DNA from: Halocatena marina
GTDB taxonomy: Archaea; Halobacteriota; Halobacteria; Halobacteriales; Haloarculaceae
Assembly: GCF_025913575.1 (NCBI RefSeq)
Contig: NZ_CP109785.1
Span: 248,001 to 312,000 of the forward strand
Length of the DNA stretch: 64,000 bases
Direction of reading: 5' to 3'
Part shown: positions 34,291 through 47,712 of the stretch, piece by piece
How positions within the stretch are numbered: the stretch's first letter is position 1
Layout of the letters: each line of letters starts with the position of its first letter
Notes under the pieces: generated by a model
Told to the model about the DNA's origin: nothing
Databases searched by the model: none
The model's input: the letters and a program-made list of their open reading frames with translations, nothing else
Position numbers and translations under genes: made by a program

Positions 34291-36213
34291 ATGGTTGGTC
34301 TCTGTGGCTCGATCGGACAAGACGCTCTCCCCGAGGCAATGGCTGAGTACATCAGCTGGGGCGACGATGAGGAGACCGTCTCATACAGCGATGATCGCAT
34401 TGATCTGCAGGCGTCATTGCATTCGTTGATCGCTGGCGATCAGCCGGTTGCAGTTGAGGATGAGGATGTCCTCCTCTGGATTTGGGGTGACGTGTACGGC
34501 TACGGATCGAGATCGAACTACGTCCCACGGCGGGGGCCACCCGACGGAAGCGCGGAGTTCTGTGCGCATCTCTATGAGGTGTTCGGGATGGATTTCGTCT
34601 CTGGACTGAACGGCAATTTCGCGCTCGTCATCTACGATCAAACGGAAAACGCCGTGTCGTTTGTGACTGACCGGTTCGCGACCCGGCCGCTCTACTACGC
34701 ACAACCGACCGACGACACTCTCATCGTTTCCTCACAGTCTCAATCGCTCACGCTTCATCCCGACATCGAACCAGCGTTCGATCTCCCATATCTTTACGAG
34801 TATCTCGATCTCAGGCGCGTGTTCGGTGTGAAAACGCCGATTGCAGGTGTCGAACAGTTCCCACCTGGATCGATTATCACGGTCGATCTCGACGACCTGA
34901 CGATGACAACGACCAGCTACTGGTCTCCCACGTACGATCCAATCGATAAGCCGTACTCGTACTTCCAAGAGCAGTTTGTCGAGACAATCCAACAGGTGTT
35001 CTCGGACTGGACGTATGATGATCTCTCGTATGGCCTGCTCCTGTCGGGTGGAAGCGACTCGCGGCTCGGGCTCGCAGCGATTGACCAACCGGTCACGACA
35101 TTCCATAATGCTGACTGGATGAGCCGAGAGGCGAAGATCGCACGGCGTGCGGCAAATGCGACAGATAATACGTTCAAGCTGCTGGAACGCGGACCAGATT
35201 ACGACGCCGGACTCCTCGAAAACGCGTCACCGTTGTCGAATTTCAGTGGCTGGTTCGATCAGGCATACTTCCTTGGATTCGAAGAGGAGGTCACAGCAGA
35301 AGTCGACGTTCTCGTCTCAGGGTTGTATGCCGATACGCTGCTCGGTGGCGGACAGCTCGAAACACCCACCGTCTCTCTCGATCCGCTCGGGAACCTCACG
35401 ATACCCACTGCACAGTCGGTCAATTCGATCGATGAGTACATCGACTCTCAGATAAGTGAGGGAATCGAACCGCTTCCGTATTTCTCTGATGACTGGTCTC
35501 TTTCGAGCGTTTTATCCGACAACATTCACGAGACACGTGACGGTATTGTCAGCCACGGTATCCATTACGATTCGATCGAAGATCTGGTGATGTACGGCGG
35601 CTACTACCCGCTAAGCTCGGACACCGACGCTATCTTTTCGGAGAGTCTGGCACAAATGCGGCCGTACCGAACGCCGTTCCTTGACAATCGGATCGTCGAT
35701 CTCCAACAACAGATCCCGAAGCGGTTCTTCCTTCGCCGTAACTTCGTCAATAAGGCAGTCGAACAGATCGATCCAGCACTCGCTGAGATACCACACGCCC
35801 ACACCGGCGTCCCACTCAAGTACCCGTTCATTGTCGAGTATCTCGGGACGAATCTCAATGGACTCTGGTGGAAACACGTCGCCGATACCAGTGTACCAGA
35901 ACCGTACCTCGACCACACACCATGGCCAAACAGAGAGGAACTCATCCGTGCTCGACCGTTCACCACCGAGACGCTGAACGAATGCAGTGAATATCTATCG
36001 GATCTGTCATTCCTCGATGTCGATGGCGCATGGCAATGCTATCACGAACATCTCGACGGAGAGGACAATACGACGATATTATATTCTTTGTTGACGTTCC
36101 TCCGAATGCGGGCCACAGAAGCGGTCCATCATTCATCTCAAACAGAGAATACCGACCGGTCCACGCCGGTCATCGAACCAAATTCGACCGCATCAGAAGG
36201 AAAAACGCGATGA
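34291..36213 (+). CDS. Asparagine-synthetase-like protein, glutaminase Cys replaced by Val
   Basis: A 640-residue protein with the two-domain layout of AsnB. The N-terminal class II amidotransferase-like domain (about 1-200) has GLNGNFALVIYDQ and VTDRFATRPLYYA, but begins MVGLCGSIG where active enzymes begin MCGI; the nucleophile position holds Val. The synthetase domain has the PP-loop LLLSGGSDSRLG (252-257) and the closing RTPFLDNRIVDLQQ. It can probably adenylate a carboxylate, with ammonia or another amine as nucleophile, as in beta-lactam synthetases that also lost the Cys; this is inference. It overlaps the second homologue by 4 bases (ATGA). Confidence 0.85.
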   Translation: MVGLCGSIGQDALPEAMAEYISWGDDEETVSYSDDRIDLQASLHSLIAGDQPVAVEDEDVLLWIWGDVYGYGSRSNYVPRRGPPDGSAEFCAHLYEVFGMDFVSGLNGNFALVIYDQTENAVSFVTDRFATRPLYYAQPTDDTLIVSSQSQSLTLHPDIEPAFDLPYLYEYLDLRRVFGVKTPIAGVEQFPPGSIITVDLDDLTMTTTSYWSPTYDPIDKPYSYFQEQFVETIQQVFSDWTYDDLSYGLLLSGGSDSRLGLAAIDQPVTTFHNADWMSREAKIARRAANATDNTFKLLERGPDYDAGLLENASPLSNFSGWFDQAYFLGFEEEVTAEVDVLVSGLYADTLLGGGQLETPTVSLDPLGNLTIPTAQSVNSIDEYIDSQISEGIEPLPYFSDDWSLSSVLSDNIHETRDGIVSHGIHYDSIEDLVMYGGYYPLSSDTDAIFSESLAQMRPYRTPFLDNRIVDLQQQIPKRFFLRRNFVNKAVEQIDPALAEIPHAHTGVPLKYPFIVEYLGTNLNGLWWKHVADTSVPEPYLDHTPWPNREELIRARPFTTETLNECSEYLSDLSFLDVDGAWQCYHEHLDGEDNTTILYSLLTFLRMRATEAVHHSSQTENTDRSTPVIEPNSTASEGKTR

Positions 36214-37925
36214 GCCATACTCTCGAAAAGTATCAAAGTAGTGAACTATCGAGTCGACAGATGAACAAAGAGTTGTTTGGTATCTTCGGTGACAGAGATC
36301 AGTTCGACGAGTGTCGATCTGAGGACGAATTTGATGAAATACTTTCAGGTGATCAGGTTACTGTTGGTATTCGTGATCCGGGCCTCGGTGTGAAAGGACG
36401 GAGTGCGAGTCATTCGGACGATCATGGTCTCTGTTTCATCTGGGGTGAGGTGTACGCTGCGGACAGTAACGCGACGAATGAAGCTGATAATAATATCGCA
36501 CAGTGGCTCTTTGAGGAGTATACGAGTCGCGGCGTAGCTGCTCTCTCTGATCTAAATGGATCGTATGTCGTTGCTCTCGAACACGATGGTGAAGCGATCG
36601 TTTCGACAGATCAAATCCGTTCGTGGGAATGCTTTTACGCTAATTCAAACGGCTGTAGGGTGTTCAGCACGGACTTTTCTGTAATCCACAGTTTTCTCGA
36701 TGATCCACAGTATCATCGACCATCGTTGCTTGAATATATCCACCTCGGAACGGTGCTCGGTGATCGAACGATTATTAAGAATGTTCATCGAGTCCCGTTC
36801 GACGCCTATCTGACGTCGGACTCCGTCGAGTCGTTGTCTCGATTTGTATACAAACCGCGACCGTTCGATTACGTCACCGAACTGACACAGCGACTCTTAC
36901 GAGCTGTTGATCGTCGAGCAAACCTCCCCGGCCCGAAGGGACTACTCCTTTCAGGTGGGAACGACTCTCGGATCTTTCTTTCTCGGATACCTGATATCGA
37001 GCAGTGTTATACGATCGGCAATCCGAACTCGCGGGAAGTCAAGGTCGCCCAAAAGGTAGCAGCGCAGTACGGGTCGAAACACACGGTATTGCTTCCGGAC
37101 GATGGCTATCTCATGCCGACCGATGAGAAAAGTCGGTACTCACAAGGAATCAAGGAATCATTGCACATCCACCACGCCGGTTTCGATGATGCATTCGAGA
37201 TGAAGACTATCTATCACGGAACGCTGTTCGATACGCTCCTTAAAGGCTACTTTCTCGAACGTGATGGTCTCGAACTGTTTGGAACGAAGCTTCCTTCGAC
37301 GAAGCTCGTTTCGAACCCACGTCCGATCAAATCGTTGCTCGGGACGCTCGGGTTTTTCCCTGAAGACAGCGAGTCAGTCGGCGTGGCGACTGAAGAGCTC
37401 TTTGAGGAGGATCTCACCCTCGACTCACCGTACGAATTCCTTCGTGGACAGTTCGAGAAAGAACTGGAGACGTGTTGGGAACGCACCGATTCGGTTCACA
37501 ACGCTATGGACCTCCTCGTCATCAAAAACCAACCCGTCTTACCATCGCATACACACCTCGCGGACAACTACTACGAGGCGTTCGTCGCCGCTGACCGCGA
37601 ACTCGTCGAATGGCACCTGATGACGCCGCCAGAATATCGACGGTATGAGACATTCCGGAAGGCAATCGAACGGATCGATTCCGATATCCTCAAACATCGG
37701 CCACAGAGCCAGCCACTCCCCTCCGTCCGGCTGAATCAGATCGAACGGTTCCTCCGACGCAAGCTCCCATTTCTCGAACCGTTCGAACCGGCATGGCCCG
37801 ATCGAGACGAGATTTACGACCAACATGCCATGGACCAAAGACTGTTCCCCGATGAGTACGCAATCCGGCGACTCCCCGCACGACTGAAGCTCCGAATCCA
37901 CGACGCCCGCTGGTGGCTATCGTAG
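36210..37925 (+). CDS. Second asparagine-synthetase-like protein, no N-terminal Cys
   Basis: A 571-residue diverged paralogue of the preceding gene. Its N-terminal domain reads KELFGIFGDRDQ, so Phe stands where AsnB has its catalytic Cys. It keeps SDLNGSYVVALEHDGEAIVS and then a PP-loop LLLSGGNDSRIF (248-253). The start at 36210 overlaps the upstream stop (ATGA), which couples translation; a later Met at 36261 (MNKELFG) is the alternative. The C-terminal third is Arg-rich and differs from the first protein. Two coupled, Cys-less homologues suggest a heteromeric or two-step amide-forming system, perhaps for a glycan or small molecule. Not a housekeeping asparagine synthetase, in my reading. 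Confidence 0.82.
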   Translation: MSHTLEKYQSSELSSRQMNKELFGIFGDRDQFDECRSEDEFDEILSGDQVTVGIRDPGLGVKGRSASHSDDHGLCFIWGEVYAADSNATNEADNNIAQWLFEEYTSRGVAALSDLNGSYVVALEHDGEAIVSTDQIRSWECFYANSNGCRVFSTDFSVIHSFLDDPQYHRPSLLEYIHLGTVLGDRTIIKNVHRVPFDAYLTSDSVESLSRFVYKPRPFDYVTELTQRLLRAVDRRANLPGPKGLLLSGGNDSRIFLSRIPDIEQCYTIGNPNSREVKVAQKVAAQYGSKHTVLLPDDGYLMPTDEKSRYSQGIKESLHIHHAGFDDAFEMKTIYHGTLFDTLLKGYFLERDGLELFGTKLPSTKLVSNPRPIKSLLGTLGFFPEDSESVGVATEELFEEDLTLDSPYEFLRGQFEKELETCWERTDSVHNAMDLLVIKNQPVLPSHTHLADNYYEAFVAADRELVEWHLMTPPEYRRYETFRKAIERIDSDILKHRPQSQPLPSVRLNQIERFLRRKLPFLEPFEPAWPDRDEIYDQHAMDQRLFPDEYAIRRLPARLKLRIHDARWWLS

Positions 37926-38060
37926 CTGTCATGGCCCGTCGTCGGTGATCAGAGCCGCCCTCGCATCAATTCGATAGTAACACACAATTCGGAGGTATTC
38001 AAACACATTAGGTAATTAATCGTATCTTATCTATTTTGCGAATAATACCGATTCCCACAG

Positions 38061-38068
38061 TATTTAAC
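38061..38068 (+). promoter_or_regulatory. TATA-like element for the FAD/Fe-S dehydrogenase
   Basis: The sequence tatttaac lies 24-31 bases before the ATG at 38092, in a short AT-rich stretch, and fits a leaderless transcript. Confidence 0.55.
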
Positions 38069-38091
38069 ATCAACAATCGCTCAGAGAGAAT

Positions 38092-41000
38092 ATGGCCGTC
38101 GAGGACAACTATCACGAAGCCGAGAGTCTCGACACATCGGTGGATTCACTCGGGTACGACCATCCGGACGCATCCCAATACCGAGAGCTGGCTGTCGACT
38201 TGCGCAGCCGACTCGATGGCGGCGTACAGTTCGATGAATACGCACAGATTCTGTACGCAACTGATGGCAGTATCTATCAGGCCCGACCGGCGGGTGTCGT
38301 CTTCCCAAAACACACAGCAGATGTGCAAGCAGCTGTGCGGACTGCTGCAGAGCACGATGTTCCGGTGCTTCCTCGTGGGGCTGGTTCGTCACTCGCCGGA
38401 CAGGCCGTCGGTCCGGGGTGTGTCGTTCTCGATCTCTCTCGGCACATGGACGCCATCCAGGACGTCGATCCCGACGCTCAGACAGTATCTGTCCAACCGG
38501 GTGTCGTTCAGGATCATCTCGACGCCCACCTCGAACAGTGGGGGTTGAAGTTCGCTCCCGACCCCGCATCCTCAAACCGGGCGACGATAGGCGGTGGCAT
38601 TGGCAACAACTCCACAGGGGCACACTCCGTTCGGTACGGCATCACCGATGCTTACACTGAGGAACTTTCGGTCGTTCTCTCGGACGGCTCGTACATTCAC
38701 ACCCGAGAGATCGTCCTCGACAGCGAGGAGTGGGACGATATCGTCTCGAACGACGACCTCGAAGCCGAGATTTACCGCACTGTTCGTCAGCTCGTCGAGG
38801 AGCACGAAGCGGAGATCGAACACCGGTATCCAACGCTAAAACGCAGCGTTAGTGGATACAATCTCCACAAGGCTATCTACGAGAACAGCGAGGGAGAGAC
38901 GGTCATCAACCTCTCGAAGCTCTTTGTTGGCGCCGAGGGCACGCTTGGTGTCGTCGTCGAAGCCACGCTCGAACTGGTTTCTGTCCCCGAGCAAACAGCA
39001 CTCGCGCTGTACTGCTTCGATGATCTCGTTCAAGCGATGGAAGCCGTTCCAGAGGCGCTCTCGTTCGACGTGAGCGCGGTCGAATTGATGGATGACGAGG
39101 TCATCCGACTGGCGCTCGAATCGACACAGTACGCCCAGTACGCCGAACCGATCCCGGACGGCACCGAGGCAGCACTCATGTTGGAGTTCGATTCTGAACT
39201 CCACAGCGACTTCGAGGCGGCCATCGAAGAGACGAACGGTCATTTTGTCGATTCCGGAGCAGCGTTCGATGTGCTCAAAGCGTACAGTTCTGAGGCACAG
39301 GCGAAGCTCTGGAAGCTCCGAAAGGCAGCGATTCCGCTGTTGATGAGCCTTGAGGGCGACCCGAAGCCGTATCCGTTCATCGAGGACGCGACGGTTCCAC
39401 CAGAGGAATTGGCCGAATACGTCCAACAGTTCGAGACCGTTCTCGACGAACACGATACATCCGCTGCGTACTTCGCGCACGCGGGGAGCGGAACACTCCA
39501 CATCCGCCCGATCCTCAACCTCAAAACCGAACAGGAAATCGAGACGATGCACTCCATCACAGAGGACGTGACCGATCTCGTGCTCGAACATCACGGGTCG
39601 TTCTCGGGCGAGCACGGTGACGGAATGGCCCGGACGGAGTTCACTCCGAAGATGTACGGCCCGAAGCTGTGGCACGCATTCAAAACGCTCAAGACCGCGT
39701 TCGATCCCGAGTGGCTCATGCACCCGGGAAACGTCGTCTATCGGGATACATCGGAGGATATTGGGCCAGACACGAAGCGAGGAACGGGTGCGGACATGCG
39801 CGAACACCTCCGGTACGGAGCTGCCTACTCGTCGGTCGAACCACAGACCGAACTCGATTATTCCGACGGATTCTCACATCTCGTCGAGCTGTGTAACGGG
39901 TGTGGCACCTGTCGACAGACCGACTCGGCCACAATGTGTCCGACGTACCGCGCATCACGCGAGGAAATTCAAGCCACCAGAGGACGGGCAAACATGCTCC
40001 GGGCGGCGATCAGTGGTGAGCTCTCCGAAGATGAGTTGTACTCCGAACGGTTCCAAGAAGAGGTGCTCGATTTGTGCGTCGGCTGTAAGGGATGTGCGAG
40101 TGACTGCCCGACTGGTGTCGACATGGCGAAGCTCAAAACCGAGCTGAAACATCACTACCATCAGAAGGAGGGAGTTTCGCTGCGCGAGCACCTGTTCGCG
40201 GATATCGACCGTCTGTTCGCGCTCGGGAGTACGTTTGCTCCGCTTTCGAACTGGCTGACGCAGATTCCTGGTGCACGACGTGTCTTAGAGCAGATCGGAA
40301 TCGCGCCTGATCGAGCGCTTCCACCGTTCACCAGAGAATCATTCGAAGACTGGTTTGAAGCTCGCGGTGGGTCGCACGTCCCACCCTCTCAGGCCGACGC
40401 GAGGGTCGTGCTGTTTCCCGATACGTACACGAACTACTGCTATCCCGAACCGGGGATTGCAGCTGTCAAAACCCTTGAGGCGGCGGCTGTCCACATCGAG
40501 CTTTTCAGTGACAATCCGAGTGGTCGTCCATCGTACTCGAAAGGACTGCTCGATGTGGCAAAACGGCGGGCCGATCGCAACGTCGATGCGCTGCTCCCGT
40601 ACGTCGAAGACGGATATGACGTTGTGTTCATCGAACCGTCGGACGCCGTGATGTTCCAAGACGAGTATCTCGATTTACTCTCTGGAACTGCTGTCGAACG
40701 CGTGAGTGAAAACGCGTACGGCGTGCTGGAGTACCTCGACAAACAGCGACTCGACGATGTCTTGAACGTTGAGCCGACAGATGAGCAGCTCACGTACCAC
40801 GGTCACTGCAACCAGAAAGCAATGAATAAGGATCACCACGCAGTGGGCGTGCTGCGGCGGGTGGGTTACACTGTCGATCCGCTCGACAGCGGCTGCTGTG
40901 GAATGGCCGGTAGTTTCGGCTACGAAGCAGAGCACTACGATATCTCACAAGCCATTGGTCGCATTCTCTTCGGACAAGTCGAAAACAGTCCCGGTGAGCA

Positions 41001-41103
41001 GGTAACTGCCCCTGGTGCATCCTGTCGATCGCAGCTCGGAGATCGTGATGGAGGTGAACGACCACCACACCCAATCGAAAAGGTCGTCGAAGTGCTCGAA
41101 TGA
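38092..41103 (+). CDS. FAD-linked and Fe-S 2-hydroxyacid dehydrogenase (GlcD-GlpC fusion)
   Basis: A 1003-residue fusion. The FAD-binding domain (about 70-260) has VLPRGAGSSLAGQAVGPG and NNSTGAHSVRYG. An FAD oxidase C-terminal domain follows (to about 550; SGEHGDGMARTEF). Two Fe-S motifs come next, CNGCGTC with a trailing CP near 600 and CVGCKGCASDCPTG near 663. The C-terminal CCG domain has GHCNQKAMNK and LDSGCCGMAGSFG. This layout is that of membrane-linked D-lactate, glycolate or D-2-hydroxyglutarate dehydrogenases. The substrate is not fixed by sequence. It is a single-gene unit with its own TATA element. All metal-binding cysteines are present. Confidence 0.93.
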   Translation: MAVEDNYHEAESLDTSVDSLGYDHPDASQYRELAVDLRSRLDGGVQFDEYAQILYATDGSIYQARPAGVVFPKHTADVQAAVRTAAEHDVPVLPRGAGSSLAGQAVGPGCVVLDLSRHMDAIQDVDPDAQTVSVQPGVVQDHLDAHLEQWGLKFAPDPASSNRATIGGGIGNNSTGAHSVRYGITDAYTEELSVVLSDGSYIHTREIVLDSEEWDDIVSNDDLEAEIYRTVRQLVEEHEAEIEHRYPTLKRSVSGYNLHKAIYENSEGETVINLSKLFVGAEGTLGVVVEATLELVSVPEQTALALYCFDDLVQAMEAVPEALSFDVSAVELMDDEVIRLALESTQYAQYAEPIPDGTEAALMLEFDSELHSDFEAAIEETNGHFVDSGAAFDVLKAYSSEAQAKLWKLRKAAIPLLMSLEGDPKPYPFIEDATVPPEELAEYVQQFETVLDEHDTSAAYFAHAGSGTLHIRPILNLKTEQEIETMHSITEDVTDLVLEHHGSFSGEHGDGMARTEFTPKMYGPKLWHAFKTLKTAFDPEWLMHPGNVVYRDTSEDIGPDTKRGTGADMREHLRYGAAYSSVEPQTELDYSDGFSHLVELCNGCGTCRQTDSATMCPTYRASREEIQATRGRANMLRAAISGELSEDELYSERFQEEVLDLCVGCKGCASDCPTGVDMAKLKTELKHHYHQKEGVSLREHLFADIDRLFALGSTFAPLSNWLTQIPGARRVLEQIGIAPDRALPPFTRESFEDWFEARGGSHVPPSQADARVVLFPDTYTNYCYPEPGIAAVKTLEAAAVHIELFSDNPSGRPSYSKGLLDVAKRRADRNVDALLPYVEDGYDVVFIEPSDAVMFQDEYLDLLSGTAVERVSENAYGVLEYLDKQRLDDVLNVEPTDEQLTYHGHCNQKAMNKDHHAVGVLRRVGYTVDPLDSGCCGMAGSFGYEAEHYDISQAIGRILFGQVENSPGEQVTAPGASCRSQLGDRDGGERPPHPIEKVVEVLE

Positions 41104-41130: not shown

Positions 41131-42300
41131 TCAGACCCCCCCGGGAATATCGGTTTCATCAGCTGCTTTAGACCACAATCCCTGAGACACGTCCATAAAG
41201 AGCACCACAATAACATGTGGGAGTGTAAGTATAGATATAAATACAAGATACATCGAAATGAGTTCTAATGTAGATGTCAGGGTCACAGGAACGAGTATGA
41301 CGACCACTGAGAGTAATCCAAACGATAGTATCGTAAGTGGGGCTGCTTCTCGTCCAAACCGGATCAGAACCTGTACTGTATCACCTCGGACGAGTGCGGC
41401 TTGAGCGCCTGTATCGACAGCCAATAACCGAATAATGTGCCGAAGAGAATGCCAGAAGCAAAAATATACGCCAACTGCTATGAGGGGAGGTACGACAAGG
41501 AAATATACATAGAGAAGAACTGTTTCACCGACATCTATCCACCAAACATCGACGGGATGAATGTCTAGTTTCTCGTCGGCGGTTTGACTGACCTTGCCAT
41601 TCCAAGCTGTTCGAGTACCGGACGCTGCTTCGGATGCGCTCCAGTAGTCGGATACCATGGTCACGAGAATGAGAAGCGAGAATACCATTCCAAACCCTGC
41701 ACGAACAGGAGCTGAAAAGAGCCACATGAGCTCGAAATTCGACCCGAATAACGCTACCCACGCTGAGACGATAGTTCGATAGTCATCTGGAAAGGCGAGC
41801 AGTGGGACCAGCATCGGTAGACCGCCCCGGATCACGACGGTAGCTACCCGTCGCAAACGCGAATCGAGATATTGAGCACCCAGCAGTGCCAGTGCGTAGA
41901 GATCTCCCTGTCCCCAATGAAACCACGTGAGCGCGATAAACATCACTGCCGAGGTCTCTGGATAAAACGACCAAAGTATCCCATATACTCCACCAAAGAT
42001 GGTGTACAGGAGGCCAATCGCTATGAGTCCCCGATATGTTACTTGTAGGCCCGCTGTTCGAGCAGGAGCGAGGTGGTCGACAGCGCCGTGGGGCAACCCG
42101 AGGATAACGACGCTTGAGAGTAGGGGGATGTATTGTACCCATACCGGAACTGCCAGATTGAGCTCACTACTAGCGAGCGTTACTGTAATGAGACCAACGA
42201 GGAGTATCCAAACTGGCCGAGCTGCAACTCGACAGTAAAACCGTCGAACTGCTTGTGATGCTGTGGGTGCATCGATCACGCCCACCGAGTGATCACCCAT
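41131..42300 (-). CDS. blh: Brp/Blh-family beta-carotene 15,15'-dioxygenase
   Basis: A 389-residue polytopic membrane enzyme that cleaves beta-carotene into two molecules of retinal. Iron-ligand histidines are in VILGLPHGAVDHLAPAR, ALTWFHWGQGDLYAL and YFCFWHSLRHIIRLLA; about nine hydrophobic segments are visible. Its start overlaps the crtY 3' end by 25 bases, so the two are translated together. It supplies the chromophore for the two rhodopsins upstream. A soluble charged loop (SEAASGTRTAWNGKV) between helices is somewhat long. Complete. Confidence 0.94.
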   Translation of the reverse strand: MGDHSVGVIDAPTASQAVRRFYCRVAARPVWILLVGLITVTLASSELNLAVPVWVQYIPLLSSVVILGLPHGAVDHLAPARTAGLQVTYRGLIAIGLLYTIFGGVYGILWSFYPETSAVMFIALTWFHWGQGDLYALALLGAQYLDSRLRRVATVVIRGGLPMLVPLLAFPDDYRTIVSAWVALFGSNFELMWLFSAPVRAGFGMVFSLLILVTMVSDYWSASEAASGTRTAWNGKVSQTADEKLDIHPVDVWWIDVGETVLLYVYFLVVPPLIAVGVYFCFWHSLRHIIRLLAVDTGAQAALVRGDTVQVLIRFGREAAPLTILSFGLLSVVVILVPVTLTSTLELISMYLVFISILTLPHVIVVLFMDVSQGLWSKAADETDIPGGV

Positions 42301-43031
42301 CGGTAGAGTATGAGGCCTTGTACGACAAAGAGATTCGTGACAAAAAAGAAAATAGCCTCTTCGATCGGCAGTCCGGCCAGCGTTATCCCGGTTGTGTACG
42401 TATCAGCTAGTGTCCAAATGCCGACCGCAATCGCAACGCGATCAGCACCCCACAGGTAGATTGTTGGAACTAATGTTCCGAAGAGGACGACTCGGTAGTG
42501 GTACAACAGCTGACAGGGTCCAACTGTCCACTGGAGGGTCAGAACAGGTGCAGCCCAAACGAGAATCGCTCCGAGATAGAACGTATCGAGGCCCTGTAGA
42601 CAATACAATCCAATACAACCAACAAGCACACCGGTCGTGCAGCCAATAAGTCGTGGAACCGGTCGTAACTGTTGAGAAACATTCGGCCATCCTTCCCGAA
42701 GAGGCAGCTGTGCGAGCCAAAATGCGGTCATGAGCGGTTGGACGAGGATAAACAAGTACTCCTCAATTGGGGCATGCCCAACAGTTCTCAGCACTCGTCC
42801 TTCTCCGTACTCCCAAACTCCGCGTGCGATAAGGTAGTTATCCCACGGCGTCGTGTACAACAGCGCTACGAGCATGAGGGCCACAACGACGAGCCAATAG
42901 ATGTGCCCACGATCGTTCGACCTAACTGAATTCCCTTCTGGTCTAATTGCCATCGCTGAGGCTGCTAACACGAGAGTAGCTGGTAGGAGAAATACAATAT
43001 GAAACTGTAAGTAAGAAATTTGTGGCAACAT
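42276..43031 (-). CDS. crtY: Lycopene beta-cyclase (two-domain CarR/CrtYcd type)
   Basis: A 251-residue membrane enzyme that turns lycopene into beta-carotene, the precursor of retinal. Each half carries the cyclase signature: TTPWDNYLIARGVWEYG and HAPIEEYLFILVQPLM in the first, GLPIEEAIFFFVTNLFVVQG in the second. About six to seven hydrophobic segments. It starts 6 bases after the end of the open bop frame and overlaps blh by 25 bases. If bop instead ends at 43705, there is a gap of about 670 bases before this gene. Complete. Confidence 0.94.
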   Translation of the reverse strand: MLPQISYLQFHIVFLLPATLVLAASAMAIRPEGNSVRSNDRGHIYWLVVVALMLVALLYTTPWDNYLIARGVWEYGEGRVLRTVGHAPIEEYLFILVQPLMTAFWLAQLPLREGWPNVSQQLRPVPRLIGCTTGVLVGCIGLYCLQGLDTFYLGAILVWAAPVLTLQWTVGPCQLLYHYRVVLFGTLVPTIYLWGADRVAIAVGIWTLADTYTTGITLAGLPIEEAIFFFVTNLFVVQGLILYRWVITRWA

Positions 43032-43037
43032 CGGTAG

Positions 43038-44462
43038 TTAGGTACCAACCGGGGGTGATCGCATCGTATTCAGTGGCGCTGTCTTGAAACCACGCATCCA
43101 GCTGAACAGACACCGTCTCAAGTGAGACGACTTACTGAAGGCTACTACTGGTTTTGTTCGGTACGCCCCTCGGCAACACATCCGAAATAAGAACGATGGT
43201 TTCTGAGAGGACGTCGGTGGTGATCTCTCCGAATATGTCGTCGCATCGCTAGACGGTAGACGTTCGCATGATTCCACGGACGATTCGTGACTGAAACAGA
43301 TATTCACGCGAGTGGCAAATGCCGCTATGTCGCTTTCATCGAAATCGTCTGCCCGAAACACCGTTTGCAAACTGGCGAGCAAGGACTGTTCTGTTCTGTG
43401 GGTATCAATTACTCTCCTCAAGACGAGCGAGGAATCCGTGAGTTGTGTATCTCGGGAGGAGATATCCGGATCACTGCCTTCCGTCTTATCAGGCTGGAAA
43501 GTGGTACTGACGCTTCGCGCTTTTCCCGTTATAATTCCAATAAGATGTCTGCTCGTAGAAGCTAATATTCGACAAATTTGTTTCTGGTGGGTATGGCTGT
43601 CGGTGCTATCGTAGTTAGGCATCGTTGAGTATACTGTTTTGTTTGTACATTGGAATGATGTGGTAGAGAGGGCCGAAAGCTGACGACACTCTTGCCGCGA
43701 TATATTAGATGTGTGGGTCGGTGGGCTGTGCACCTGTTTTGATTGCTTCAGTTGCCGCATCAAGCACGTCATGGCTCGACAGAAGATGAGACCGATCCCG
43801 ACTTTCGCTATCAGGTCCAGTACCGTGAAGCCAGCTGTCTCGATGTAGAGACTGACTGTCCCAAGACCTTCCGTTCCGAACAGCCACCAGATTGGATAAA
43901 TGAGCCAGACGATTATCAGTAGCGTCCGAAGAGTCTCGAATGTGGATTTTGTATCACTGCTAAGACGCTGTGATTCCTCTTCAAGCGTTCTGTAGAGAAT
44001 ATAAAGCAGGACGAGGAGAAAACCTGTGGATATTCCCCACCAAATGAGGCGGTGGGCATCCGCCGAGAGGAATCCGCTCCCGCTGAACAGCGTGGCCAAT
44101 GCACCAGCCCCAAGCATAAGCATGTCTACCCCAACAAGGGTTGTCAACTGAGTCCAATTCGCGCCCACGAGCAGTCCAAGGTCAATCAGTAGTAGGGGGA
44201 TGGTAAAGAACCAATCTGTGTATCGGGCCCAATAAATAGGCATTTGTCCCCCACCGACCGTCACTATCGCCAACACAAATTCTATTGATATCAAAAGATA
44301 ATTGATAAATACGGTGGTGATGACGAATATTGTCACAATATCGAACTTCTGTCGGTGGTTGTTTTTTACACCCCATCCGCGAGCGATGAAATACAGCATA
44401 CCCAGTAGCATCCCCGTTGTCCCGGTCCAAAGCCATATCTGCTCTCTGATTGGTGCTGGCAT
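43038..44462 (-). CDS. bop: Bacteriorhodopsin-type proton pump with 240-residue C-terminal extension or frameshift
   Basis: The frame encodes 474 residues. Residues 1-230 are a seven-helix opsin with all proton-pump positions: R80, D83, T87 and D94 in ARYTDWFFTIPLLLIDL (bacteriorhodopsin R82, D85, T89, D96), E198 and E208 (E194, E204), and D216 and K220 in VLDLIAKVG (D212, K216). The retinal lysine is thus present. After residue 230 the frame runs on through a Ser/Thr-rich segment without recognisable domain to 6 bases before crtY. In the -1 frame from about 43773 the sequence instead reads HDVLDAATEAIKTGAQPTDPHI and stops at 43705, which looks like a normal opsin tail. So the extension may reflect a one-base loss, an assembly error or recoding. 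A TATA element at 44486 supports the start. Confidence 0.88.
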   Translation of the reverse strand: MPAPIREQIWLWTGTTGMLLGMLYFIARGWGVKNNHRQKFDIVTIFVITTVFINYLLISIEFVLAIVTVGGGQMPIYWARYTDWFFTIPLLLIDLGLLVGANWTQLTTLVGVDMLMLGAGALATLFSGSGFLSADAHRLIWWGISTGFLLVLLYILYRTLEEESQRLSSDTKSTFETLRTLLIIVWLIYPIWWLFGTEGLGTVSLYIETAGFTVLDLIAKVGIGLIFCRAMTCLMRQLKQSKQVHSPPTHTSNISRQECRQLSALSTTSFQCTNKTVYSTMPNYDSTDSHTHQKQICRILASTSRHLIGIITGKARSVSTTFQPDKTEGSDPDISSRDTQLTDSSLVLRRVIDTHRTEQSLLASLQTVFRADDFDESDIAAFATRVNICFSHESSVESCERLPSSDATTYSERSPPTSSQKPSFLFRMCCRGAYRTKPVVAFSKSSHLRRCLFSWMRGFKTAPLNTMRSPPVGT

Positions 44463-44485
44463 AAAAATGAGATCGAGTCGGATGG

Positions 44486-44492
44486 TAATAAA
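44486..44492 (-). promoter_or_regulatory. TATA-like element for bop
   Basis: The plus-strand taataaa (tttatta on the coding strand) lies 24-30 bases before the bop ATG at 44462. bop therefore probably has its own leaderless promoter in the 267-base gap after hop. Confidence 0.55.
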
Positions 44493-44729
44493 CAGCGTAC
44501 ACAGCTAGTAGGGCTTGCTGCTCGAGAGGCACAATTTTGTAAGATAGATGACTTGACTATAGAAGTATTTATGAATAGTCAAAAATTCATCCCCTCAATC
44601 CTCAGCAGTAGTAGGTATTCGACATCTCGAAGCATTATTTCCAAGACTCACACGCATTTAGAATAGTGGCAGATGGCAGCCACGCTAGCAATGTTTTTCC
44701 GCTCACCCTCAAGAAATTCAAATCGGTGA

Positions 44730-45566
44730 TCAGTCGTCAACTGTTGCCGACTCGGTGGCCAACTCCCGCCCTGTCATAGACACTATCCGCTCGTTCGAAG
44801 CAATCCACCGGAGAAGTAGGAATGCAAACACGTACTTTGCAAGAATATCGAGGACAGAGTAGCCCCACGAGGTAAGTCCTGGCGACTGGACGAGTGCGAG
44901 TCCTTCAACACCAACTGCCCAGATAATCGGGTAGCCGAGCCACAGGACGATTGTTAGCGTGCGGAGGAGTCTAAAGATATCACTGGTACCTGCTTCGACT
45001 GCAAACGTTGGCCACTCAATCACCAACGCATAGAGGACGACGATAAAGAACGTGCAGCCGACAGCGTAGAATAGCCAGCGGAACAGATAGGAGGACGTAA
45101 CTAAGGCTGCCGCGAGCCCTGTCATACACATTCCTATATCAGCCGTAATAACGGTGAAGAGACTTCCCAAGTTGGCGTCAGCGAGGAGCCCAAGCGCAAG
45201 CAAAATCAAAGGCGTTGAGAGTGTCCACGTGAGGTATCGTCCCCACTGGCTCATTACTTCCTCTCCCGCCAATGCGTGGCCCGCTGGCATCTCGATAAAA
45301 CTGGCTGTCAGTCCAGAAGCCAGCCCGAGATAGCTCGAGATTGAGACGAGCGGTATCATCAGTGTCGCTCCCCAAATGAGGCGAGCGCGGTTGCTCGCAA
45401 TTCCTCGACCCATGTATACGAATAGCAGTGCCGACAGACCAGCCAGCGCGATATTGACCCACAATGAGGAACTCAACAACACATCGTTCTGTATCTGCGA
45501 GAATGCGTCAGCTTGCGTTGCTTGGAGTAGAATCCCGCTCACGACAATTTGACCAATCGGTGACAT
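44730..45566 (-). CDS. hop: Halorhodopsin (light-driven chloride pump)
   Basis: A 278-residue opsin. The helix C motif WGRYLTWTLSTPLILLALG has Thr113, Ser117 and Ala124, the TSA triad of chloride pumps in place of the aspartates of proton pumps. ASFIEMPAGHALAGEEV is the long B-C loop of halorhodopsins. Helix G carries Asp240 and the retinal Lys244 in SVLDILAKYVFAFLL. The ATG at 45566 is chosen because a TATA element lies 25-32 bases upstream (45591); an ATG at 45614 would lie upstream of that TATA. It is the first gene of the phototrophy cluster, co-oriented with bop, crtY and blh. Confidence 0.95.
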   Translation of the reverse strand: MSPIGQIVVSGILLQATQADAFSQIQNDVLLSSSLWVNIALAGLSALLFVYMGRGIASNRARLIWGATLMIPLVSISSYLGLASGLTASFIEMPAGHALAGEEVMSQWGRYLTWTLSTPLILLALGLLADANLGSLFTVITADIGMCMTGLAAALVTSSYLFRWLFYAVGCTFFIVVLYALVIEWPTFAVEAGTSDIFRLLRTLTIVLWLGYPIIWAVGVEGLALVQSPGLTSWGYSVLDILAKYVFAFLLLRWIASNERIVSMTGRELATESATVDD

Positions 45567-45966
45567 ACGTATCCGGTTTGGTGCGCTGAGTATATAAAAT
45601 ACATCCGAGACCATAATACAATAAATTAATGATCTTATTGAATATTACAAACTCACCGTCTGTGTCGAGTTTTTATTGGTTTCTTCGTGTGCTCGATTTG
45701 TCGTATCCGTATCGATTATCGAGCAGTTCTGAGACACAGCAACCTCATCAAATAAATGAAATTTATATATTGGTCATATATAAGTTGAATCATTGGTCTT
45801 TTGTGGTATTGTACGGCCAAAGCCATCCACTCCAAACATTCTATCGGTTATTTGAAGATATATCTTGCTCCATTGGCGTTTGAATATTTGTAATTATGAC
45901 CGAAAACAATATTATGTGTGATGTTAAATCACAACATTATCGGCCCACGAGTGGTCGAGAGGATCA
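45567..45966. other. AT-rich divergent region hop / Nramp-like gene
   Basis: About 400 bases, very AT-rich at 45600-45650 and 45750-45930. It holds the hop TATA element and, just before the rightward gene, a purine-rich gagaggatca that could serve as a ribosome-binding site for the ATG at 45967. No gene is supported. Confidence 0.5.
45591..45598 (-). promoter_or_regulatory. TATA-like element for hop
   Basis: The sequence tatataaa (tttatata on the coding strand) lies 25-32 bases before the ATG at 45566. It is the clearest TATA box in the window and decides the hop start. Confidence 0.65.
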
Positions 45967-47712
45967 ATGACAGGACAATCAGAGAAGGGAGCGGAGACAG
46001 AGTCTGACGGCGGTGTCGTCGACGACGTCTACGCTAGTGCAGAGGTTGGAGAACAGTATCGAGATTCGATGTATCGAGAGGTGAATTACGAGGTTCTTGA
46101 AACAGCTCCCGACACCACGGATTATCCGAAAGCCGATGGGAAAGGCGGTTACAAGCTGACCGATTTACCGAAGGTACCGAAGGTTAGTCACATCGTCGGA
46201 CCGAGTGCGATCATGCTCGGAGCGGCACTCGGTAGCGGTGAGACGATGTTCTGGCCGGCAATCATCGCTCAGGATGGGTGGGCGCTCTATTGGGCGTTCT
46301 GGGTCGGCGTACTCACGCAGTTTTTCATTAACACCGAGCTTCAGCGGTGGGCGATGGCCACCGGAGAAAGCATTTTTCGTGGATTCGATCGCTTGAATGG
46401 GCTTTGGCCGTGGTTTTTCCTATTTGCCGGATTCGTCCAGCTCGGCTGGCCGGGCTGGGCTGCAAGCGGCGGAAAGGTGTTTGCCGCATGGACAGGTCTC
46501 ATTCCACTGAATCAATGGTATTGGGTCGGACTTGCAACGATGATCGTCATCTGGCTGTCGTATCAGGCGGGTCCGGTGGTGTACAACATCATCGAAAAGG
46601 CTCAACTCGTAATGATGGTCCTCGCGATCGTCGGTGCCGTCGTGTTGGTTTTCCTCGTCGGTTCGATCGGTGAACTGGCGAACTTGCCTGCTGGCGCAGT
46701 GAGTTTCGGGACGCTCCCTGCCGACGTTGAGATTGCGACGTTCCTCGGTGGGTTGGCGTACGCCGGTGCTGGCGGATACACCAATCTCTCACAGGGGGTT
46801 TGGGCCCGTGAGAAGGGCTTCGGAATGGGTATCTATCAGGGCCGTGTGAAAAATCCTCTCCGTGGGGATAGTGAGCCCGAGACGGTTCACGACGGATATT
46901 CGTTCGAGCCGACCGAAACGAATCTGAAACGCTGGAAAGCGTGGTGGAAAGTGACCCAACAGGAGCACTTTTTGACGTTTGTGGTTGGACTGCTTGTCAT
47001 TGCAACTGGTGCAATGACAATTACGGCACAGTACGTCCCAAGCGGGCAGACCGTAACAGGCAACGCTGTTTCCATGTGGCTCAACATCGTTATTCCACAG
47101 TTGGGGAGCGCCAACGCGTTCTTGATGTATATGGTGTTGTTCATCGCGCTGTTTAGCACCCAGTACGCCATCGTTGAGGCGTTCACCCGCAACACCGTCG
47201 ACATCATCTATCAGGTCTACGGACGAGAACACGGTATGAACGTGAGTCGCGTCTTCCTTGGAGCACTTACTGTGTTCGTGCTGTGGGGGATGGCGATCAT
47301 CGGAGCGAACGCCGTAACCAATATCACGACGCCGTGGATCTTCTTGGTGCTCGGTGCAGCGATGGCCGGCGTGATGATGTGGCCGTACAACGCACTCACA
47401 ATCATCCTCAACACCACCCGACTGCCCGAACACACCCAACCGGGATGGGTCCGCGTCATCGCCATGTGGTGGGCAACCGGCTTCTTCGGGTACTTCAGCA
47501 TCCTGTTGATCGGGGATCTCCTGTCAAGCAGCTTCGGGCTAAGTGTCTTCAGCACGACTGTAGATATCGTGAGTAGTGGTGTTGGCGGCTACGTCCTGTG
47601 GCTGATCGCGCTTGCTGTTCAGGTGTACACGATGTACCGGTCGGGCCAAGCGAAGCTCGAAACGAACGATACAGTCGAGAACGCCGAGGAAGCAGCAGGA
47701 TTCCTCGCCTAA
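45967..47712 (+). CDS. Nramp-related transporter without the canonical metal motif
   Basis: A 581-residue membrane protein with an acidic soluble N-terminus of about 65 residues and about eleven hydrophobic segments. The first helix reads GPSAIMLGAALGSGETMFWPA, which aligns with Nramp TM1, but the metal-binding DPGN is replaced by a Gly/Ser/Glu sequence. The TM6 region (FGTLPADVEIATFLGGLAYA) also lacks the usual MPHN. A hydrophilic insertion near residues 275-325 (REKGFGMGIYQGRV to RWKAWWKV) is unusual. The family is called Nramp-like in haloarchaea; the substrate may not be a divalent metal. It is a single gene, divergent from hop. Confidence 0.8.
   Translation: MTGQSEKGAETESDGGVVDDVYASAEVGEQYRDSMYREVNYEVLETAPDTTDYPKADGKGGYKLTDLPKVPKVSHIVGPSAIMLGAALGSGETMFWPAIIAQDGWALYWAFWVGVLTQFFINTELQRWAMATGESIFRGFDRLNGLWPWFFLFAGFVQLGWPGWAASGGKVFAAWTGLIPLNQWYWVGLATMIVIWLSYQAGPVVYNIIEKAQLVMMVLAIVGAVVLVFLVGSIGELANLPAGAVSFGTLPADVEIATFLGGLAYAGAGGYTNLSQGVWAREKGFGMGIYQGRVKNPLRGDSEPETVHDGYSFEPTETNLKRWKAWWKVTQQEHFLTFVVGLLVIATGAMTITAQYVPSGQTVTGNAVSMWLNIVIPQLGSANAFLMYMVLFIALFSTQYAIVEAFTRNTVDIIYQVYGREHGMNVSRVFLGALTVFVLWGMAIIGANAVTNITTPWIFLVLGAAMAGVMMWPYNALTIILNTTRLPEHTQPGWVRVIAMWWATGFFGYFSILLIGDLLSSSFGLSVFSTTVDIVSSGVGGYVLWLIALAVQVYTMYRSGQAKLETNDTVENAEEAAGFLA

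Follow-up and report, generated by a model that had tools for sequence, protein, structure and literature searches.

Does the bop gene at this locus encode a proton pump with a large cytoplasmic extension, or a bacteriorhodopsin whose reading frame was lost close to its end? The gene lies in a 64,000-nt stretch of DNA (the window; C1:248001-312000) from a 5.3-Mb haloarchaeal genome of 7 contigs. A preliminary description of the window noted that the opsin frame runs on almost to crtY, that another frame resembles a normal haloarchaeal opsin tail with a stop at 43705, and that a missing base (by mutation or assembly error), ribosomal shifting or a functional Ser/Thr-rich extension might explain this arrangement. 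In this genome and in a second one, bop leaves the family frame at codon 227, and ribosomes would miss its normal tail; we consider it probable that the gene is under relaxed selection and heading toward loss. The features on which this reading is based are collected in Table 1.

Table 1. Features of the bop locus, in window positions
Feature	Position	Strand	Basis
Opsin ORF, 474 codons	43038-44462	-	ATG start, TAA stop at 43040-43038
Bacteriorhodopsin core, residues 1-226	43785..44462	-	PF01036, cruxrhodopsin-3 match, invariant columns
Codon 227, site of frame loss	43782..43784	-	Comparison with 120 homologues and 29 loci
Displaced 25-residue opsin tail and TAA	43705..43782	-	Translation, tail consensus, codon usage
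Run-on extension, residues 227-474 and TAA	43038..43784	-	Open reading frame
crtY, lycopene cyclase	42276..43031	-	PF18916 and TIGR03462
brp/blh-like beta-carotene dioxygenase, retinal synthesis	41131..42300	-	PF15461, E 8.8e-69
Halorhodopsin, comparison gene	44730..45614	-	PF01036; closest database relatives carry the name halorhodopsin

The opsin core and its neighbours

The microbial rhodopsin domain (PF01036, Pfam) covers residues 7-232 of the opsin frame with an E value of 2.4e-55, and residues 1-231 align with bacteriorhodopsins, the best solved relatives being cruxrhodopsin-3 (PDB 4jr8, E 1.1e-87) and 4pxk. Residues R80, D83, D94, D216 and K220, which we take to be the equivalents of R82, D85, D96, D212 and K216 of bacteriorhodopsin (BR), were invariant in a comparison with 30 homologues; the Arg/Asp set, including the key aspartates D83, D94 and D216, and the retinal lysine K220 are retained, and the core contains no stop. 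In residues 1-226, in the lysine and aspartates and in the adjoining crtY and blh genes, the locus is like those of haloarchaeal bacteriorhodopsins such as cruxrhodopsin-3 and 4pxk. It departs from them after helix G, where haloarchaeal bacteriorhodopsins have a short in-frame tail and end at about 234-263 aa, whereas the window opsin has its tail in another frame, replaced by 248 foreign residues. When residues 1-231 were compared with database proteins of about 127-404 aa, no opsin among the best 120 of 517 was more than 66% identical, so that a close normal-tailed relative was not found.

As the preliminary description had it, the 474-aa frame ends 6 bases before crtY (ATG at 43031). From the stop of the normal tail, the distance to crtY is 673 bases; in 18 of 29 loci from relatives, the next ORF resembles crtY by eye and lies 45-553 bases past the opsin stop. 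The halorhodopsin, crtY and blh frames are intact beside the broken opsin, so that the cell would continue to produce retinal and a chloride pump. The region 41131-47712 (blh, the opsins and on up to the next transporter) had no DNA match in five other genomes of the genus; the 36000-41100 segment does match DNA of other genomes of the genus, and hence 41131-47712 is an accessory region. A second opsin of this genome (G000:C1:3205201-3205881, locus L002) is 32% identical, with its crtY placed divergently, and opsins of similarly low identity are also present in five other genomes of the genus.

Frame change in codon 227

The two frames diverge in codon 227, residues 1-226 being native and residues 227-474 foreign. 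The preliminary description had placed the shift at 43773, with the opsin intact to residue 230; the domain is indeed present, but the break lies about 10 bases upstream of that position. It falls at what we take, by analogy with bacteriorhodopsin, to be the cytoplasmic end of the last helix. The consensus of relatives here is KVGFGIILLSS(R/H)xVLDAA, and the window frame reads KVGIGLI, then FCRAM. One frame off, the sequence reads CTG TCG AGC CAT GAC GTG, giving LSSHDVLDAATEAIKTGAQPTDPHI, with a TAA at 43707-43705. Among 120 homologues, tail positions 1-4 are L (120), L (120), S (116) and S (120), and D occupies position 9 in 116; the alternative frame yields L, S, S and the ninth-position D of this consensus, in agreement with its earlier description as a normal tail, and the open frame (F, C, R, A) yields none of the consensus residues. 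Codon usage tracks the opsin frame to about 43790 and thereafter the frame of the normal tail.

Loci from relatives supported the view that one base is missing. Of 59 genomes scanned, 46 matched, and loci were obtained for the best 30, one of which was the genome's own; in the other 29, all opsins end at 234-263 aa with the tail in frame, and the extension is in none. The same end points, again with an in-frame tail, were found in 65 of 67 loci from named genomes, and the extension in 0 of 67. The comparison of tail lengths proposed in the preliminary description thus gave normal tails almost throughout, and a single relative that bears the extension, the sister protein P0001 considered below. 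The two remaining named loci are both broken early, which indicates that loss of bop recurs. In L046 (Halobellus inordinatus YC20), bop, from 6001, has a stop at codon 31 and a frame that is otherwise sound to the normal tail; a database protein named for Halobellus inordinatus (P0003, 248 aa) is whole. In L090 (Natronomonas sp. LN261), where bop also starts from 6001, there is a frame change near codon 33 and then a normal tail, which points either to a further bop gene broken in nature or to an error in sequencing.

When the extension was compared with a protein database (878 candidates of 261-830 aa), the sole match was P0001, a protein of 474 aa that is identical at 464 of 474 residues and shares both the break and the extension. 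The P0001 cluster comprises two contigs, the longest of 3,934,123 bp; the contig carrying the window has 3,915,224 bp. An error of sequencing or assembly would have dropped a base from codon 227 of a gene that is in truth normal-tailed, and the wholeness of the normal tail in the other frame is in keeping with this. However, a second, distinguishable genome that differs at 10 residues encodes the same break and extension on a different contig, and the break is therefore not a random error. The sequence at the break, ATCTTCTGTCG, contains no homopolymer longer than two bases, and the genome is 99.91% complete (contamination estimate 9). A systematic fault of one sequencing method could have affected both genomes; even so, we regard an error as quite unlikely, and the assembly error proposed earlier as largely excluded. 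The preliminary description had also held that a homologous extension in the same frame in relatives would speak against a frameshift. One such case was found; at 98% identity it is a sister, and its break was most simply inherited.

Each of the two frames extends beyond codon 227 and the normal tail is undamaged, as would be the case if programmed frameshifting produced a normal-tailed and a long opsin from one message. Yet CTC ATC TTC TGT at the break allows no tandem re-pairing and provides no slippery site for both tRNAs, the arrangement is carried by 0 of 29 and 0 of 67 loci and shared with the sister P0001 alone, and Rfam elements were absent from 42200-45800 at E values up to 1. Ribosomal shifting, which had been offered as an explanation, is hardly credible at this site. 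A LSSHDVLDAATEAIK peptide, if seen, would indicate frameshifting or an error.

The run-on extension

The run-on frame is without a stop from codon 227 to 43041, about 220 codons past the normal stop. The remark in the preliminary description that this length argues against chance was borne out, in that dinucleotide shuffling left the 43041-43704 segment open in the same frame once in 20,000 shuffles, and in any of six frames in 5 of 20,000, although the surprise is inflated because the finding was chosen for its open frame. In genes of the same genome, a shifted sense frame was open over 663 bases in 16 of 4,032 frame-windows, taken as two frames in each of 2,016 overlapping windows. Simulated loss of frame 78 bases before the stop of sampled genes gave a run-on of at least 660 bases beyond that stop in 10 of 495 cases, counting those that entered downstream genes.

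A real cytoplasmic domain, created when the frameshift fused opsin to a 248-residue tail that is now kept by selection, would be expected to leave an open frame of this kind. The frame is open in the second genome too, with 1 of 243 residues changed as against 9 of 231 in the core, and its end 6 bases ahead of crtY also fits such a domain. Other evidence argues against it. A recognisable or conserved domain after helix G was absent in all searches (Pfam, NCBIfam, PHROGs, PDB, genomes and proteins): no Pfam, NCBIfam or PHROGs family came near cut-off in the extension, no PDB sequence matched it below E 0.48, and a scan of 145 genomes of the family, this one among them, gave matches with E no higher than 1 in 26, the best in the 144 others being at E 0.0023 and interrupted by stops. 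The open frame has a codon z of 0.5 relative to shuffles, as compared with 4.6-6.7 for four surrounding coding regions. Ser makes up 16% of the extension, Thr 11% and Cys 3.6%, and it is basic by 7 charges over 221 residues, in a genome where 248 ORFs drawn from 400 kb have a mean excess of 14 acidic residues per 220. AlphaFold2 predictions (31 sequences) gave block mean pLDDT values that range from about 59 to 80 over the core and fall mostly below 50 from residue 245, with a patch near 55 at residues 351-390; on the extension this is weak evidence, because just two alignment rows span it. We take opsins with a C-terminal signalling domain (enzyme rhodopsins) to have, as the window opsin does, a long part after the seventh helix, but the window extension differs from them in being without a recognisable domain. 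The functional Ser/Thr-rich extension of the preliminary description, unsupported by homology, codon usage or predicted fold, is possible but unlikely, and a selected domain fused by the frameshift is in our judgement unlikely as well. We attach as little probability to its consequence, that intergenic DNA would have given a proton pump a novel domain on its cytoplasmic side, translated, selected and slower-evolving than the opsin itself, a birth of a domain between close strains.

The openness of the frame well past chance might also reflect a separate small gene downstream (for example, from the ATG at 43622) that the frameshift merely joined to bop. Around 43470-43310 the open frame scores close to zero for codon usage, and not below, as such a gene might show; against this, there is no codon signal over the whole open frame, and no homologue or family was found for it. 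We view this possibility as very unlikely.

Several other candidates for the origin of the extension were rejected. A repeat was ruled out, in that the 739-base run-on stretch is present once in its own genome. We make no claim that the extension overlies a decayed gene: the normal-tail frame has a codon z of 3.5 over 43041-43703 despite its stops, but this was also reached by 5 of 27 controls (stop-rich segments of the same genome), and across 145 genomes the translation of this frame had no match below E 0.004. A hand-joined query matched a region at egsA (glycerol-1-phosphate dehydrogenase) in G312 at E 5.4e-4, G312 being one of 2 genomes, besides that of the window, that matched at E up to 0.01 among 292. 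A profile of 29 egsA starts scored 7.4 bits, the first of 1,404 scores listed. We attribute this to chance: one shuffle reached 7.1 bits, the conserved WIRLPRN is missing and there was no DNA match. Among plasmids there was one 66% match, to an ordinary bacteriorhodopsin, and the hand-joined query had no match.

Constraint on the opsin in the two genomes

Under the reading we prefer, loss of frame in bop, one base would have been lost in the common ancestor of the two genomes. Ribosomes would then skip the 25-residue tail and read 248 unrelated residues toward crtY, presumably making a 474-residue protein. With the break placed, by analogy with bacteriorhodopsin, where the last helix meets the cytoplasm, the core may still insert and pump. 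Selection on the opsin would be relaxed.

The two genomes differ at 9 of 231 core residues and at 1 of 243 extension residues (p 0.009, or 0.06 with residues 27-31 taken as one event). The lower change in the extension may reflect recombination that inflates the core count, DNA that is held in place (perhaps as a crtY promoter) or a selected tail. Four of the core differences lie within residues 27-31 (ARGWG in the window, VLEWS in P0001), adjacent changes that look like one event; among homologues, G29 is invariant (120 of 120) and R28 is present in 119 of 120. Halorhodopsin differs at 1 of 278 residues at most between the genomes, if P0122 is the second genome's halorhodopsin, as inferred from the longest contig of its cluster; this cluster holds two sequences, and the difference is therefore 0 or 1. 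The core and halorhodopsin counts differ at p 0.007, or 0.05 with residues 27-31 as one event.

At core positions conserved in at least 95% of 120 homologues, 21 of 128 are changed in the window opsin and 22 of 128 in P0001, as compared with 7 in the next homologue; departures from consensus include G61E, G63V and T88I. For halorhodopsin, 9 of 157 conserved positions are changed in the genome's own protein and 6 in the next outside the lineage, and the core departs from conserved positions more than halorhodopsin does (Fisher p 0.006). Halorhodopsin identity is nevertheless 78-79% for this lineage versus 86-88% among three others, and opsin identity 62-66% versus 74-89%, with the halorhodopsin excess about in proportion (the Haloarcula opsin and halorhodopsin used may not be from one species). 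In a tree, the window opsin and P0001 pair on a stem of 0.9 with no close sister. Because halorhodopsin is divergent too and this stem lacks a close sister, part of the excess is due to lineage and not to decay. In a leave-one-out comparison with named loci, the window opsin had 14 of 87 positions changed, equalled by the distant L109 (14 of 91) and above the other named loci. Relaxed constraint on the opsin is likely from these sequence comparisons, but not proven.

The available text of PMC4500146 describes haloarchaeal genes that have been disrupted by stop codons or small indels, as well as loss of bacteriorhodopsin in Natronomonas pharaonis, and that of PMC1885257 describes patchy gain and loss of rhodopsin pumps; judged by these portions, a disrupted bop is of a known kind. 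The window gene resembles the disrupted genes in the available text of PMC4500146 in that a slight shift of frame sets it off from a conserved family, and differs from them in that its break comes where the last helix ends, lengthens the protein instead of shortening it and is common to two genomes. What sets it apart is that a break so late, at the close of helix seven, would spare the pump core while appending a long foreign stretch, and that two genomes have it; no report of this locus was found in the literature searched. Loss of bacteriorhodopsin in haloarchaea is usually viewed as presence or absence, and this locus looks midway, with the pump core and the retinal-making neighbours remaining and the frame broken in two lineages that have since diverged. 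The locus is also a natural experiment on whether assembly or pumping is stopped when helix G carries a large foreign tail.

The 474-aa opsin should not be read as the first member of a new fusion family. Opsin frames of 824-904 codons in relatives raised a similar suspicion of fusions, and three were examined. L197 had 0 opsins among its ORFs of at least 500 aa. In L198 (3655-5580, minus strand) and L199 (1798-4260, plus strand), the frames run in ahead of ordinary opsins; these long stop-free frames cross overlapping upstream genes and might be mistaken for fusion opsins.
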